Under the pieces are notes generated by a model. That model was not told the origin of the DNA, did no database searches, and saw only the letters and a list, made by a program, of their open reading frames with translations. The position numbers were made by a program, and so were the translations under genes. 64,000 nt of DNA, from NCBI RefSeq assembly GCF_000447795.1, contig NZ_AUNI01000011.1, forward strand, positions 62,001-126,000. Direction: 5' to 3'. This stretch comes from Bacteriovorax sp. Seq25_V (GTDB lineage Bacteria > Bdellovibrionota > Bacteriovoracia > Bacteriovoracales > Bacteriovoracaceae). Within the stretch, counting starts at the first letter, position 1. Each line of letters opens with the position of its first letter. Positions 41,417 to 47,098 of this stretch are shown here, in pieces.

Positions 41417-42523
41417 TTGAGCTTAGTTTATAAATTTGGTGGAAGTACCATACGAAGTGCATCAGCACTTCGTATGATTGCTGACATCATCGTCAATTCT
41501 CTTGATCTACGTTTTGTGGTTGTTTCAGCAACTTACAATTCAACAAATGAGCTTGAAGAAATTGCCAATGCAGCTACGAAGAGTACATGCCATAGCAAGG
41601 ATCTTATAGCTTCATTTCTTTTTAAGCACGAGTCTCTTGCCAGAGAGCTTGAAGTCCTAAACTTTTGTCAGGCCAGTTTTGAACAATTTAAACTTGAAGC
41701 GATTAATTATTGTGATCAAATCCATGAAAGCCTTGAAGTAAGTTCGGAGTTGATGGATGCCCTTTACTCTCTTGGCGAAAGATTTTCTTCGGTGATTCTC
41801 TATTCATTTCTCAAAGAAAAGCTACATCACGAAGTTGAGCATCTTGATGCGAGAAATGTCATCACTACAAACACTCGTTTTCGTGATGCAACACCATTAT
41901 TTGGTATCATTGAAAGAAATTTAACCAATCTTGATAAGACAAAGGTTTATATCACCCAAGGGTTTATTGGAAAAACTATAGACGGTAGAACGACGACTCT
42001 TGGAAGAGAGGGTTCTGATTACACTGCTTCTATTCTTGCTTGGGCCATTAAGGCAACTCGCTTAATTATCTGGAAGGATGTCGGTGGGATTTTATCATGG
42101 GACCCTAAGATTCATGATGGAGCTTACAAGCTTTCTGAAATCTCATATGATGAAGCCACTCTTTTAACTGAAGCCGGAGCTAAGGTTCTTTTTCATCGTA
42201 CGATGAACCCTCTTAAAGAGCGCTCTATCCCTCTTGAAGTTAAAGGGGTTTATGCACCAACGGAGCATGGAAGTGTGATTTCAAATAAGCCACACGGTAA
42301 AATTCTAGGTCTGGTTGAAACTAAGAAGCAAGACTATTCTCTGCTTTCTATTTGTGGGAATAAATTAATCTCAAATGCCTCAATCAATCAGTTGATCGAG
42401 ACGGAGATTAATAATCTGCATGAGTATAATGACAACTTAGCCACTTTCAAGATTAACTCGCAAAGAAGAGATTCTCTACTGGAGAAAATTGTTCAGATTG
42501 TAACTCATTCATTTGATTCGTAA
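41417..42523 (+). CDS. aspartate kinase with shortened regulatory domain
   Basis: This enzyme phosphorylates aspartate at the start of the Lys/Met/Thr pathway. The catalytic domain is complete: KFGGSTIRSA at residues 6-15, the REGSDYTAS substrate motif, WKDVGGILSWDPK and GAKVLFHRTM. The KFGGS position demands the TTG start at 41417; no ATG is usable. Only about 70 residues follow the catalytic part, enough for one incomplete ACT domain instead of two, so feedback control may be altered. It is coupled to ettA (3-nt gap). Its 3' end overlaps the convergent cpaF gene by 71 bp. Confidence 0.85.
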   Translation: MSLVYKFGGSTIRSASALRMIADIIVNSLDLRFVVVSATYNSTNELEEIANAATKSTCHSKDLIASFLFKHESLARELEVLNFCQASFEQFKLEAINYCDQIHESLEVSSELMDALYSLGERFSSVILYSFLKEKLHHEVEHLDARNVITTNTRFRDATPLFGIIERNLTNLDKTKVYITQGFIGKTIDGRTTTLGREGSDYTASILAWAIKATRLIIWKDVGGILSWDPKIHDGAYKLSEISYDEATLLTEAGAKVLFHRTMNPLKERSIPLEVKGVYAPTEHGSVISNKPHGKILGLVETKKQDYSLLSICGNKLISNASINQLIETEINNLHEYNDNLATFKINSQRRDSLLEKIVQIVTHSFDS

Positions 42524-43592
42524 TTGGGTGCATACCTTCTGCGCCCTTTACCTCGATAATCTCCTTCACTTTCTTATTTTCTAAAAAAACGACATTATCT
42601 ATATTTTTACATATAAGCTGTAGAATTTGTTCATAACTAATGGCCTGGCCTGAGTTTGAAAAAATACTAAATAGCATAGCTAGTCGTGAGAGAGTATCGT
42701 TGGCACTATTGGCGTGAATTGTTGAAAGTAGACCTGTGTGCCCTGTATTCATTGCAAGAGTGAAGGGGACAACTTCTTCGGCCCTGATTTCCCCAAGAAT
42801 AATTCTTTCCGGTGACATACGCAGTGAATACTTACAAAAATCTGTCATCGTCTTATTTTTTTCGCCAGTGGCAAGCATATTAGTGAAATTCTTATCCGGG
42901 CAAGATATTTCATGGGTATCTTCGATAACAACAACATGCTCCTGGCCCTCAATATATTTAAGGCATGACTTGAGAAAACTAGTTTTTCCCGAACCTGTTG
43001 AGCCTGCAATAATAATATTTTTCTTTTCTTTTATTAACTGCGCAACAACAGTTGCATCTTCTCCATACTGTGCTAGATCAAATATTTGAGTGGCAAGTTT
43101 CCTTAAGAATATTGTCGGTGAGTTGAACGCACTGATGCAGCTATGAGTTAGTGTGCAACGATAATTTTCGCCATTAAGTTCTAAAAGGAAAGAGCAGAAA
43201 GGATTTTGAAAATTCCAGTTTTGATTATTCTTAAGTCCCAAGACATTGAGACATGTTTCAAGGTCATCATTTTCAATGGCGAGTCCTTCAAAAATTTCCT
43301 TTCCTTTTTTACTTATAACTTCGATAGAAGTATTCCCGTGAATAATGACTTCAAAAAGATCTTCTTGATCGACAATTGAACTTAGAAAACAGTGGTCAAA
43401 GTAAATATCAAAAATATCCTTCAGTTCAGTCATTTGAGTAATCGTCTCAAGATCAAGACTGTTTTCGTAAGCAATGCGTGCGCAGATAGATTCATGAGTG
43501 AAATCAATACTTCTTTGTAGTTCTTCTTTGAAGAATCTCTTATAACTCTTAATTAAAAAATTGATTGCCTTTTGGTTTTCGCTGTTAGTCAT
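42453..43592 (-). CDS. CpaF/TadA-type secretion ATPase
   Basis: The 379-residue cytoplasmic ATPase powers Tad/Flp pilus assembly. It belongs to the VirB11/CpaF family: Walker A AGSTGSGKTSFLKS near residue 194, the Asp box VVVIEDTHEI, Walker B-like RIILGEIRAEE, and the His box TGLLSTIHANS. The N-terminal domain (1-150) is divergent from classical TadA. It begins at the secretin stop (TAATG overlap) and ends 71 bp inside the convergent aspartokinase gene. Confidence 0.88.
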   Translation of the reverse strand: MTNSENQKAINFLIKSYKRFFKEELQRSIDFTHESICARIAYENSLDLETITQMTELKDIFDIYFDHCFLSSIVDQEDLFEVIIHGNTSIEVISKKGKEIFEGLAIENDDLETCLNVLGLKNNQNWNFQNPFCSFLLELNGENYRCTLTHSCISAFNSPTIFLRKLATQIFDLAQYGEDATVVAQLIKEKKNIIIAGSTGSGKTSFLKSCLKYIEGQEHVVVIEDTHEISCPDKNFTNMLATGEKNKTMTDFCKYSLRMSPERIILGEIRAEEVVPFTLAMNTGHTGLLSTIHANSANDTLSRLAMLFSIFSNSGQAISYEQILQLICKNIDNVVFLENKKVKEIIEVKGAEGMHPITNQMNELQSEQFSPVENLFFAS

Positions 43593-44956
43593 TACAGTTC
43601 CTTTTTTACGACACGTACAATCGCAACAATTTTCTTATAAGTATTCATTGAGCTTTTTGATGAAAAGATATTTTTCAATACTGGAATCTTGCCAATTACA
43701 GGGATTGAAGATTCAATTTGATCATCAGTTTTAATATCAATTTCAAAAATTTGTATTGGTCTATCTAGTGAAATTGAGAACGCAGACTTTTGTTTATTCC
43801 CTGAGATTGATGTTACAGCATCTTCACTTCCTGATATTGGTCTTGAAAGATTTGTTTCATATTGAATTTGGAATTGATTATTTTCTTTTTTCATCAATAT
43901 ATTGATGCCAAGTCCTACGAACTTCCACTTTGTTTCACTTACAACATTACTTCCTCCTGTTCCCTGGAAAGGTATTTCACTTCCAATTTTGATATCGAGT
44001 GGAGTATCTAATTTTAAAATTGCTTTTGGAGTTGCGAGTGTTGAGAGATCGTACTGTGACTCTTTAAGTTTGATATTATTGTTACCTGCAAGTGCTGCCA
44101 GTCCTTGCGAAAATACATCTGAGAGATTGACATCAATTTGATCAAGTCCAAAGTTGATTTCTGAACCGTCGAGCTTTTCAATTTGAAATAGCTTAATATC
44201 AATTTGATAATTTTCTAGTTTCCCAAAAGTCATAGATGGATAAAATTTCAATCCGTGCTTTTCTTCCATTGTCTTGATGAATTGTTTATTTTTAAGAATT
44301 GTTTGAGTTGTAGCGCAAGTAATGATGGCCTTTGATTCTTCACAAAGAATTTCATCAAGATAGTTTTGGAAGAAATCATAGTACACAGAACTAATAATTT
44401 CTTTTCTAAGATCTTTTGTAATTTGAAGGTTATTAATAATCTCATTCTTATGATTCTTTACAATTTCAAGAGTTGAAAGGTACTGGTCTTGATTTGTAAT
44501 TGCGCCCCCAAGAATAAGCTTTGGTCCAAAAACCTCGGTTTCATTGAGGCCAATGGCGGCCAGGGAATTTTGGATCTCTAAAAGCTTTAGTTGCTGGTTC
44601 TTACTAAGGACATAAATCTTCAGGGTCTTCTTATCCTTACCAAGTAGTTTTAGTTCACTGTAGCCTTGCATGAGGCCTGTTAAGTAAAATTTGTTTGTGT
44701 TTTTGTCAAAGCGAACACTGATGATGTCTTTGTTACCAATAGCGTACTTTGAGATACCATTTGCATTAATTTCAAATACTTGGCCTTTAGAAAGGCTGAG
44801 TTGAGAGTTGAGCTCCTGTGACGCATAGGTATGGCCAAAAGAAAAAACGATGGCAAATGAGGTAAAGACTTTGACAAAACACTGAAATTTAGATAAAAAT
44901 TCTGTTCTAGTTAAAGACTTTAATTTTTTTAGTTTTATATTTAGGAGAATAATCAT
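43592..44956 (-). CDS. CpaC/RcpA-like secretin of the Tad pilus
   Basis: From ATG 44956 the product has 454 residues: an N-terminal signal (CFVKVFTSFAIVFSFGHTYA), a pilus-assembly N-domain (LSKGQVFEINANGISKYAIG), a BON-like middle, and a C-terminal secretin domain (ILKLDTPLDIKIGSEIPFQG, IQYETNLSRPISG, KIPVLKNIFSS). It would form the outer-membrane channel. No ribosome site is visible. The ATG overlaps by 2 bp the ATG of the opposite-strand basic gene (CATG). The upstream extension to 45043 lies antisense to that gene and is rejected. Confidence 0.78.
   Translation of the reverse strand: MIILLNIKLKKLKSLTRTEFLSKFQCFVKVFTSFAIVFSFGHTYASQELNSQLSLSKGQVFEINANGISKYAIGNKDIISVRFDKNTNKFYLTGLMQGYSELKLLGKDKKTLKIYVLSKNQQLKLLEIQNSLAAIGLNETEVFGPKLILGGAITNQDQYLSTLEIVKNHKNEIINNLQITKDLRKEIISSVYYDFFQNYLDEILCEESKAIITCATTQTILKNKQFIKTMEEKHGLKFYPSMTFGKLENYQIDIKLFQIEKLDGSEINFGLDQIDVNLSDVFSQGLAALAGNNNIKLKESQYDLSTLATPKAILKLDTPLDIKIGSEIPFQGTGGSNVVSETKWKFVGLGINILMKKENNQFQIQYETNLSRPISGSEDAVTSISGNKQKSAFSISLDRPIQIFEIDIKTDDQIESSIPVIGKIPVLKNIFSSKSSMNTYKKIVAIVRVVKKEL
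44871..44899 (+). promoter_or_regulatory. candidate promoter of the small basic gene, inside the secretin gene
   Basis: A consensus -35 TTGACA (44871-44876), 17-nt spacer and TAAAAA (44894-44899) on the plus strand. It lies antisense to the secretin signal-peptide codons and about 55 nt upstream of ATG 44955. Confidence 0.6.
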
Positions 44957-45080
44957 GGTTTCTAGAACTCGTGTAACTGAAAACAGACGTACAATCAGAA
45001 AAAAGAAAATGGGTGTTAAGAGAAAAGCAGCTAATAAGAACAAGGGAACAACTCCTAAGTTTAAAGTTCATCTCGATTAA
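44955..45080 (+). CDS. small highly basic protein, 41 aa
   Basis: This frame is short but well marked: promoter TTGACA-N17-TAAAAA upstream, AGGAG 8 nt before the ATG, and a terminator 28 nt after the stop. The product has 15 Lys/Arg and two acidic residues (net about +13), with no hydrophobic segment: NRRTIRKKKMGVKRKAANKN, then GTTPKF. Such composition suits a nucleic-acid or ribosome-associated protein. It points against the surrounding tad operon and its ATG shares two bases with the secretin ATG. I do not recognise a named family. Confidence 0.7.
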   Translation: MVSRTRVTENRRTIRKKKMGVKRKAANKNKGTTPKFKVHLD

Positions 45081-45108
45081 TTAATATTTTTATATTTTTC
45101 GAATTAAG

Positions 45109-45133
45109 AGGCCTTCGTAGAAAGGCCTTTTAT
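45109..45133 (+). terminator. terminator after the small basic gene
   Basis: AGGCCTT (45109-45115), 6-nt loop, AAGGCCT (45122-45128), then TTTTAT. It overlaps the stop of the convergent small secreted-protein gene by a few bases. Confidence 0.82.
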
Positions 45134-45420
45134 AGTTTAGATATAGTCTTTTGAAGAATATCTGTATTCTGTCTTACAAGATTTAAATTATCATCCTGGT
45201 CAAAGCAGATATGTAAGACCACTTCTTTATAAATATCCTCGCAGGGCTTATCGGATTGCACAGCTGTAACTAACTTGGCGGTAACTTCTTCTTTCATTTG
45301 AGAGAGAAAAAATTCTACAGATTGGCTTTTGCTTACGTAGCTAATGACGATTATCTCCCTTGCTAGGACTTGTGTTGAAAGAAGAGTCGAAAATAGTAAT
45401 GATTTAAAAACGAATTTCAT
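45130..45420 (-). CDS. small secreted protein of the tad locus, 96 aa
   Basis: From ATG 45420 (AGGAGC 6 nt upstream) the product has a signal peptide (SLLFSTLLSTQVLA) and about 73 mature residues with two cysteines (KPCEDIY and LHICFD) that could pair. Family not recognised. It overlaps the preceding CpaB-like gene by 17 bp. A small exported protein beside tad genes recalls the position of Bd0108 in the Bdellovibrio hit locus, but sequence similarity was not judged. Confidence 0.55.
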   Translation of the reverse strand: MKFVFKSLLFSTLLSTQVLAREIIVISYVSKSQSVEFFLSQMKEEVTAKLVTAVQSDKPCEDIYKEVVLHICFDQDDNLNLVRQNTDILQKTISKL

Positions 45421-45925
45421 GTGGTGCTCCTGTTGCATTTCTCTTACGTGTTAGAACTGTCATAGGGTAGGCCCTAATTAACTTATTTCTGTAGTTTAAA
45501 AACTTTGAGGCATCCTGATCTTTAACTGTGACGACGTAAACTGGAACTTCTTGATCTTCGACGTCGACGACTTCTTCTGTTAGATTTTCAATAATGACTT
45601 CCTCTGCAATCATTTCATTAGATGGACCAACTAGTTTTACTTTTGGAATTCTCCCTCCTTTAGGAATATAGCTTTGAATTGGTAGGCTAAGACTTGTCAT
45701 ACCTTTTTCAATTTCAGCTTCAACTGTCGGAGTGACTTGATTGCTACTAAGAGCTGTATAAGTCATCATATTAGTCAGGAAGATGCAAATGAGAGACTTA
45801 ATAGTAATGGTCTTCTTAAATTGCTGCTCCTTTGCTTTATTAAAGAACAAGTCATCTTCTTTTTTAGTGTCAGTTATTTTTGAGCCAGCTTTCTTTAAAA
45901 TTTTGAAATTCTTTAAGTCTTGCAC
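45404..45925 (-). CDS. CpaB/RcpC-like Tad pilus protein
   Basis: A 173-residue protein with GTG start and AAGGAC 7 nt upstream. It has a basic cytoplasmic N-terminus, one membrane segment (ITIKSLICIFLTNMMTYTAL), and a periplasmic domain where SLPIQSYIPKGGRIPKVKL and VYVVTVKDQDASKFLNYRNK resemble the second half of CpaB/RcpC, the secretin-associated subunit. The SAF domain of classical CpaB is missing, so the identification is tentative. It overlaps both neighbours (56 bp and 17 bp). Confidence 0.5.
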   Translation of the reverse strand: MQDLKNFKILKKAGSKITDTKKEDDLFFNKAKEQQFKKTITIKSLICIFLTNMMTYTALSSNQVTPTVEAEIEKGMTSLSLPIQSYIPKGGRIPKVKLVGPSNEMIAEEVIIENLTEEVVDVEDQEVPVYVVTVKDQDASKFLNYRNKLIRAYPMTVLTRKRNATGAPHEIRF

Positions 45926-46154
45926 TTTCGATGTCCTTTTGTAGGTTGATATAGTTCATGAGTAAAGTCGTTATAATTAAAGTCCAACCAAGCGCTTCAA
46001 TTTCCACAAAGCCTCGCTGTTTATTTCTTTTGAGCTGAGTGTAAAAGAGTGAGTGATGACTCCTTTGATGAGGCTGAACTCTGTTTCGATTGCGAAAGAA
46101 TCCCGGGCCATAGTCATTGGCCCGTTGGCCGTAAATACGAGATAGTTTTTCCAT
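45870..46154 (-). CDS. TadE-like prepilin with GF-type cleavage motif
   Basis: A 94-residue protein whose ATG has AGGA 5 nt upstream. After 48 basic residues comes QRG/FVEIEALGWTLIITTLLM: Gly at -1, Phe +1 and Glu +5 followed by a hydrophobic helix, the class III prepilin-peptidase signal. The mature protein would be about 46 residues with a charged tail. Its first 178 bp overlap the end of the preceding TadG-like gene in another frame. The leader is unusually long, and no better start codon is found nearer the motif. Confidence 0.6.
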   Translation of the reverse strand: MEKLSRIYGQRANDYGPGFFRNRNRVQPHQRSHHSLFYTQLKRNKQRGFVEIEALGWTLIITTLLMNYINLQKDIESARLKEFQNFKESWLKNN

Positions 46155-46606
46155 TTTTTCCTAAAAAATAGTGTGCCATCGAAATCTCTTTTCAAGAATG
46201 TTGAGGCGACAAGTTCAACTGGGGTACTTATTGCAAAATGTCCGGTATTTTTCCAGTTACAGTATTTCGATTTTGCAACATTTTTCAGATATGAAAGATG
46301 GTATACCTGCTGCGCAAACATTAGTGCTCGATGGGCCGCTACTGCAGCAGCATACACGGCCGGAATTTTGATTACGGTTTTTGTCCAATATGCTGCCTGG
46401 ACGGCGCGATTAAGGCGTGATTGGACAGTGTAGTAGCGCTCGACAAGTCTTACGGTGTCTTGAGTACATAGGTAGCCTTTGTTTCGAAATTGAAGTTTTC
46501 GATAAGCAATGAGGCTTTTGGCGATATTTGCTGTGGCGAAGGCGAGAACAAGGAGAGTGAGAAGAAATGCGACTGGAAGAATGGTACCTTTGTTATTTCT
46601 AATCAT
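45977..46606 (-). CDS. TadG/TadE-like pseudopilin-type membrane protein
   Basis: A 209-residue protein with an N-terminal RNNKGTILPVAFLLTLLVLAF segment like the membrane anchors of TadE/TadG minor pilins, but without the Glu5. The remaining periplasmic part has two cysteines (GYLCTQD, SKYCNWK) and an alanine-rich helix. It starts 1 nt after the preceding gene, so translation is probably coupled. Codon use in the alanine-rich part is more GC-rich than around it. The exact family is uncertain. Confidence 0.55.
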   Translation of the reverse strand: MIRNNKGTILPVAFLLTLLVLAFATANIAKSLIAYRKLQFRNKGYLCTQDTVRLVERYYTVQSRLNRAVQAAYWTKTVIKIPAVYAAAVAAHRALMFAQQVYHLSYLKNVAKSKYCNWKNTGHFAISTPVELVASTFLKRDFDGTLFFRKKWKNYLVFTANGPMTMARDSFAIETEFSLIKGVITHSFTLSSKEINSEALWKLKRLVGL

Positions 46607-46607
46607 T

Positions 46608-46928
46608 TCATTGTCCTTTACTCTTTGTTATTCGATTTTTAGGAACTAGTTTTTGTCGAAAGTCATATTTATATCTTGAACTTCGATAATCAATTTTGTA
46701 GTGAGCATCTTCTTGCTTGATGCTGACCTTGCGTTGAAGGAAGCCTTGATATTCGCAAGAAATAGACTTCTTTAAAGGTCTGGTTGTGGAGTTAAGTCCA
46801 CGTTGAAGCTGAAAGTAGGTGAGGTAGCTTTTTTCCTCGATACATCCATTTTCGTTGATTACTTGAATGGAGAGGAAAGAGACCACTACAAGAATTGTAA
46901 TGGCCAGTATATGAGAGAGAATTTGCAT
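46608..46928 (-). CDS. small TadE-like membrane-anchored protein, 106 aa
   Basis: The N-terminal helix (ILSHILAITILVVVSFLSIQVI) anchors a basic periplasmic domain with two cysteines (NGCIEEK and ISCEYQG). Its place after the Flp pilin and before the TadG-like gene suggests a minor pilin or pseudopilin, although a prepilin cleavage motif is not present. The ATG shares its A with the flp stop (TAATG), so it is translationally coupled. Confidence 0.5.
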   Translation of the reverse strand: MQILSHILAITILVVVSFLSIQVINENGCIEEKSYLTYFQLQRGLNSTTRPLKKSISCEYQGFLQRKVSIKQEDAHYKIDYRSSRYKYDFRQKLVPKNRITKSKGQ

Positions 46929-47098
46929 TAGATCTTGATAGATTTAGTGATTTTTTCTTTTGATTGCTTGAGGCGAGTTTCGATTGAGTCACCAAAACTC
47001 TTCATGACGCCAATGCAAAGAATACCAACGAGGCTTGTGATAATCATATACTCCATCACGCCTTGACCTTTTTGATTTCTTAAAATTTTCTTCTTCAT
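46928..47098 (-). CDS. flp: Flp-type pilin subunit (type IVb prepilin), 56 aa
   Basis: The short frame has AAGGAG 5 nt before ATG 47098. The product has a short basic leader KKKILRNQKG, then the cleavage and assembly motif G/QGVMEYMIITSLVGILCIG, with Glu5-Tyr6 as in Flp pilins, a hydrophobic helix, and a charged C-terminal helix (SIETRLKQSKEKITK). Length is typical of Flp (50-75 residues). It is the first gene of the tad-like operon. A prepilin peptidase is not in the window. Confidence 0.85.
   Translation of the reverse strand: MKKKILRNQKGQGVMEYMIITSLVGILCIGVMKSFGDSIETRLKQSKEKITKSIKI

Follow-up and report, generated by a model that had tools for sequence, protein, structure and literature searches.

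A second, reduced Tad-like pilus cassette in Bacteriovoracaceae, distinct from the hit locus and probably the counterpart of Bdellovibrio flp3

The 64,000-nucleotide stretch of Bacteriovorax sp. Seq25_V analyzed here (the window) carries a pilus cassette that is a second system, distinct from the hit locus of the same genome. By type it is a Tad (type IVb/c) pilus machine, the second of the genome and a reduced one. We think it probable, with moderate confidence, that this cassette is the Bacteriovoracaceae counterpart of the flp3 locus of Bdellovibrio and a conditional Tad machine that uses the hit platform in trans.

Gene content of the cassette

All eight open reading frames of the cassette were confirmed on the minus strand between positions 42453 and 47098, in the order proposed in the first-pass annotation. 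The gene flp (46928 to 47098) encodes a Flp-type major pilin of 56 amino acids with the prepilin motif KGQGVMEY; its Pfam match to Flp_Fap (6e-4) lies under the curated cut-off, and the motif G-x4-E-Y is kept in 74/74 homologues. Three genes for small membrane proteins follow, namely a tadE-like gene (46608 to 46928) for a bitopic protein of 106 amino acids, mostly with two periplasmic Cys; a gene for a tadG-like or GspK-like minor pilin of 209 amino acids (45977 to 46606), whose prepilin-like N terminus lacks Glu5; and a GF-type small prepilin gene (QRG-FVEIE; 45870 to 46154), which overlaps tadG and has its true start inside the open reading frame. Under a strict pattern, the Glu5 form of this last prepilin occurs in 24 of 68 loci. 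None of the three has a Pfam match, and their assignments come from transmembrane or prepilin features together with position and synteny.

The cpaB/rcpC-like gene (45404 to 45925) encodes a putative alignment-complex protein consisting of a transmembrane helix and one domain. As there was no meaningful Pfam match in 48 homologues and a profile comparison of canonical with flp3-type RcpC gave nothing significant, its identity as RcpC rests on the predicted fold. With the AlphaFold model (pLDDT 82), RcpC (9gzr) is the sole outstanding match, with a Z of 7.5 over 82 residues, slightly under the guide value of 8, the next match being at 3.6. RcpC has a transmembrane helix and two domains (PMC12307814); the aligned range covers only the helix and the second domain, the first domain being absent.

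The open reading frame of the cpaC/rcpA secretin spans 43592 to 45043, the true start being uncertain because its 5' end overlaps an antisense gene at 44955 to 45080. The protein matches Pfam Secretin at 1.2e-6 and, used as a profile against solved structures, T2/T3 secretin at 3e-15 and RcpA at 1e-8; it is an RcpA/CpaC secretin with a pilus N-domain. The cpaF/tadA gene (42453 to 43592) encodes an unfused motor ATPase of 379 amino acids with intact Walker A (GSTGSGKTS), Asp box, and Walker B (ILGEIRAEE), matching Pfam T2SSE at 3.6e-33 and aligning over residues 45 to 359 to solved CpaF chains (7e-25). Walker A and B are retained in 71/71 CpaFs.

The claim of a Tad/Flp pilus locus is supported in the form of a Tad-like one. 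In the Pfam searches, matches were obtained for CpaF, the secretin, and (below threshold) Flp, and none for the CpaB-like, TadE/G-like, and GF-type proteins. On these sequence grounds, the eight genes are a Tad-type cassette, which we file as a reduced, Tad-like variant because the TadB/TadC platform is missing from the locus. With the canonical Tad pilus (Caulobacter cpa, Pseudomonas rcp-tad) it shares Flp, RcpC/CpaB, the secretin, and CpaF, whereas it is without TadB, TadC, TadV, and TadZ, and its RcpC has one of the two periplasmic domains. Local absence of TadV, TadZ, and TadC had been correctly reported earlier, in a list to which TadB must be added.

Between the CpaB-like gene and cpaC lies the gene for a small secreted protein of 96 amino acids (45130 to 45420), and such a gene precedes the secretin gene in every case. 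The protein has a signal peptide, no evident lipobox, and conserved cysteines C60 and C72; among 58 sequences, one Cys is invariant and the other is present in at least 90%. It is confidently predicted to form a compact alpha/beta domain (pLDDT 88), whose best structural match (Z 5.7), to the anticodon domains of tRNA synthetases, reflects a common arrangement and is uninformative, and Foldseek gave no match at E 0.001. We suggest reading the protein rather as an accessory that serves the secretin in the periplasm.

The constant place of this protein ahead of the secretin also fits a secretion pseudopilus, in which the minor pilins and short Flp would act as a periplasmic piston exporting through the secretin and the 96-residue protein would be cargo, chaperone, or secretin helper. 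Conservation of the three small minor pilin-like proteins, the secretin, and the ATPase agrees with such a device as well. However, G-x4-EY in every homologue marks the major pilin as a true Flp, and the cassette also encodes an alignment protein of the RcpC type, which is specific to Tad pili, so that we judge a pseudopilus unlikely.

The hit locus elsewhere in the genome

The first-pass annotation had read the cassette as an equivalent of the hit locus of Bdellovibrio, with the 96-residue protein where a Bd0108-like factor might lie. Genes of Tad type are indeed present, as is one for a small secreted protein, and the Bdellovibrio hit/TAD locus (bd0108-bd0119) shares with the cassette Flp, TadE/G types, RcpC, the secretin, and CpaF; it differs in having TadB, a TadZ-TadA fusion, the Rhs protein Bd0109, and, in Bacteriovoracaceae, TadV. 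However, a complete hit-type locus is found on another contig of the genome (C21, about 357.6 to 367.9 kb; L017 5659 to 15857), the genome being 99.97% complete. Its order is flp-flp-TadV-flp-TadE/G-TadE/G-RcpC-RcpA-(TadZ-TadA fusion)-TadB-Rhs protein, followed by two short signal peptide ORFs, and the Bd0109-like Rhs gene lies at L017 13494 to 15122. In genome G102 (3,782,950 bp), which we take to be Bdellovibrio bacteriovorus HD100, TadB, the TadZ-TadA fusion, RcpA, RcpC, and flp are found at about 98.9 to 106.3 kb. The published layout of TAD/hit loci in Bdellovibrio and like organisms (BALOs), including TadV in Bacteriovoracaceae, fits the C21 locus (PMC5430801). In Halobacteriovorax marinus, the Bd0109 homologue has two small neighbors without homology to Bd0108, and C21 is similar (PMC4267844); here, two secreted products of 65 and 61 amino acids beside the Rhs gene (L017 15226 to 15423 and 15672 to 15857) are candidates by position for Bd0108.

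In a tree of 30 CpaF-type proteins, a constraint joining the cassette CpaFs with the hit CpaFs was rejected (p-AU 0.003), and the cassette ATPase is not a TadZ-TadA fusion of the hit clade. No Rhs/YD-repeat partner like Bd0109 adjoins the cassette. The 96-residue protein is predicted to be folded (pLDDT 88), in contrast to Bd0108, which is described as intrinsically disordered and has a CxxC (PMC4267844). With a full hit locus on C21, the CpaF grouping rejected, and a gene order of the flp3 type, equivalence of the cassette to the hit locus has become highly improbable, and a role of the 96-residue protein as a Bd0108-like switch factor falls with it.

A separate observation concerns an orphan CpaF-type ATPase of 378 amino acids (contig C19; L018 7599 to 10783), which clusters with hit-type CpaFs and is adjoined by a 648-residue secreted protein.

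Conservation, the flp3 locus, and an antisense gene

To follow the cassette among relatives, 80 named loci were taken with the 41-residue product of the antisense gene as query, and 68 of them, having flp, the small secreted gene, cpaC, and cpaF, were scorable. Those four genes are in identical order in 68/68 scorable Bacteriovoracaceae loci, with the antisense gene in mid-cassette in every one. Eight of the 12 unscored loci are on pieces of <12 kb; in L085 the secreted-protein gene was not detected, and in L138, L146, and L151 cpaC-cpaF stand alone beside the small gene. Among the records that carry the cassette are those of Bacteriovorax stolpii, Halobacteriovorax marinus, and Bacteriovorax sp. 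BSW11_IV. As a rule, it is bordered by a SPOR-domain gene and manC at one end and by genes for an amino-acid kinase and an ABC-F protein at the other. A search for the secretin across 58 relatives found a single copy in almost all genomes of the family, and by hand count it is present in 24/25 of those with a completeness of at least 90%. The exception, G011 (93% complete), is without both the cassette secretin and the 41-residue protein gene, through loss or an assembly gap.

The cassette diverges quickly: within the genus, identity is 41 to 45% for cpaF and 21 to 26% for tadE, compared with 87 to 90% for the neighboring ABC-F gene and 70 to 73% for the hit TadB. Such divergence could reflect relaxed use. 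Together with the silence of flp3 in laboratory Bdellovibrio (PMC5430801), it might even suggest a decaying relic that is little used, but eight intact genes are kept in fixed order in dozens of genera, the Walker and prepilin motifs are without exception, and the retention of Walker A/B in all 71 CpaFs argues against decay. We therefore regard a relic as very unlikely.

Synteny with relatives does exist, and it is with the flp3-type locus of Bdellovibrionaceae rather than with the hit locus. In G102, in G040 (2,657,893 bp; presumably B. exovorus JSS), and in genomes of families f11 and f23, flp, the tadE-like and tadG-like genes, the small prepilin gene, the RcpC-like gene, the secreted-protein gene, and, farther on, cpaC-cpaF follow each other in cassette order (in L175, flp is at or past the edge of the listed stretch). 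By interpolation of gene numbers, the G102 pilin, at 3.216 Mb of 3,782,950 bp, would be at the site of bd3297 (flp3). The presumed flp3 locus of B. bacteriovorus (bd3297) and its presumed B. exovorus equivalent (a11q_630), placed by position and genome length, share the cassette order, and no platform, TadV, or TadZ was seen in them. They differ in being split into halves, with about 4 to 5 kb of unrelated genes between the secreted-protein gene and cpaC in the flp3-type loci of other families, and in a larger secreted protein with no recognizable homology to the 96-residue protein. In L171 (5871 to 10675) and L175 (4711 to 9277), the insert encodes an amidohydrolase, a large coiled-coil protein that is secreted, and, immediately 5' of cpaC, a response regulator/histidine kinase.

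Profiles of cassette and flp3-type RcpC-like proteins align collinearly (E 2e-4). In the best CpaF tree, cassette and flp3 CpaFs are joined weakly (support 58/52), and a grouping of the cassette with cpaC-cpaF modules found beside metK in other families was not rejected (p 0.42). Since tree support is only 58/52, the case for orthology to flp3 is chiefly one of gene order. Rotem et al. classed flp3 as "non-TAD associated" and found it to be silent in all phases tested, deletable with predation unaffected, and not FliA responsive (PMC5430801). In the promoter region of the cassette flp, the best match to a FliA-type site scores 8/12, the same as in most relatives, and both hit promoters score 10/12; this is weak evidence.

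The antisense gene, which the first-pass annotation had missed while listing the eight ORFs correctly, is on the plus strand (44955 to 45080) over the start of cpaC and encodes a basic protein of 41 amino acids (MVSRTRVTENRR...KGTTPKFKVHLD) behind an AGGAG ribosome site. Its putative promoter (44871 to 44898, plus strand), within the 5' coding region of cpaC, has a conserved TTGACA -35 element, perfect in 65/78 loci, and an A/T-rich -10 element. A hairpin, GGCCTT...AAGGCC, followed by TTTT (45108 to 45129, plus strand) is its likely terminator, and several relatives have hairpins at the equivalent site 3' of the gene. The gene is found in single copy in 160/192 Bdellovibrionota genomes; its product, with 54 to 73% identity to the window copy and 15 invariant columns, is more conserved than any cassette protein. 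In several other families the gene is located by metK and cpaC-cpaF, and in Bdellovibrionaceae it is apart from the cassette. No relatives of the protein were found in Pfam, NCBIfam, or the PDB, and it is possibly ribosome associated or nucleic acid binding.

The conserved block before cpaC was considered as a tRNA or other known RNA and discarded, as there was no tRNA and Rfam matches were at chance level; the block is the protein gene on the opposite strand. Likewise rejected was a conserved transmembrane segment in an N-terminal extension of CpaC: in an alignment inspected by hand, TGA closes that frame in about six of 19 relatives, which makes the antisense gene the more likely cause of the conservation. 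The invariant V-K pair of the cpaC leader falls at the same place as the antisense -35 element. In the lineage of L051 and L084, the 41-residue protein's counterpart has a long, histone H1-like, Lys/Ala/Pro-rich (KAPK) tail, which is encoded antisense to the cpaC leader.

The platform and a possible mode of action

No TadB/TadC platform, TadV, or TadZ gene was found near the cassette in about 90 loci, in a search that did detect the platform of locus L138 as a control, and no PilD homologue is near the Bacteriovoracaceae cassettes. The six T2SSF domains of the genome comprise two pairs by PilB/GspE-type ATPases, the hit TadB on C21, and one gene on contig C10; within the sensitivity of the profiles, there is no third TadB/C-type platform gene. 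Across the genomes of the family, too, the hit TadB and the C10 TadC were the only TadB/C-type genes found. TadV and TadZ are in the C21 hit locus. As there is no local platform and no third one in the genome, the cassette most likely borrows the hit platform and peptidase.

The C10 gene (L021 5550 to 13833) encodes a TadC-like T2SSF protein, extended at its N terminus by a secreted segment, and is followed by DUF192 and FHA-domain genes, a PP2C-type phosphatase gene, and a response-regulator gene. It was considered as a private platform of the cassette and discarded: both it and the hit TadB are near universal in the phylum and, in other families, often 12 to 15 kb apart, so that the two seem to be the TadC and TadB of a single system, and the C10 region resembles a second half of the hit Tad system that has come apart from the first.

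In other families, the modules beside metK (L160, L153, L161, L164, L167, L168, and L138) consist of the small gene, a divergent cpaC-cpaF pair, and, in convergent orientation, a gene for a two-domain TadB-TadC-like protein, largely unrecognized by Pfam. A protein of this kind was sought in Bacteriovoracaceae with profile A5 and dismissed, since in this genome the profile returns only the hit TadB and the C10 TadC.

The cassette might instead form a Tad-type machine that needs no TadB/TadC platform or that has a platform protein of unrecognized type. The dearth of platform genes in and around some 90 loci and of a third one in the genome would agree with this, as would the dedicated TadB-TadC-like gene of the related metK-side modules in other families. 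Against it stand the two compatible platform proteins of the genome, and we know of no type IV filament machine that dispenses with a platform; we consider it decidedly unlikely. A broader reading, possible but clearly less probable than the one we prefer, is that of an ancient platform-less Bdellovibrionota machine, either plugged into the hit platform or platform free, which would make the pilus type switchable, and whose secretin gene is interlocked with the phylum-wide gene of the 41-residue protein.

On our preferred reading, that of an flp3 counterpart served by the hit platform, Flp would form the pilus shaft, the three small membrane proteins would be minor pilins or tip, an RcpC-like ring would join the secretin to the inner membrane, and CpaF would power assembly, with TadV of the hit locus and the TadB/TadC pair (C21 and C10) acting in trans. 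If so, pilin, exit pore, and motor would be swappable on a shared inner-membrane platform. A precedent for split loci is the Kil system of Myxococcus, a Tad-like machine of a predator with parts from two separate clusters (PMC8460266), which differs in that its own platform genes, KilG/KilH, are inside those clusters. The cassette probably has a conditional role (tied to surfaces, aggregation, or a prey state outside the laboratory) rather than that of the core prey-entry pilus.

The search for Bd0108-like factors in this group is redirected to the real hit locus. The gene flp3, published as an orphan, silent pilin gene, here appears to head a conserved cassette that brings a secretin, an alignment protein, and a motor of its own, and the purpose of flp3 thereby becomes a testable question. 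Borrowing of the hit platform, if true, would mean modular pilus exchange in predators.
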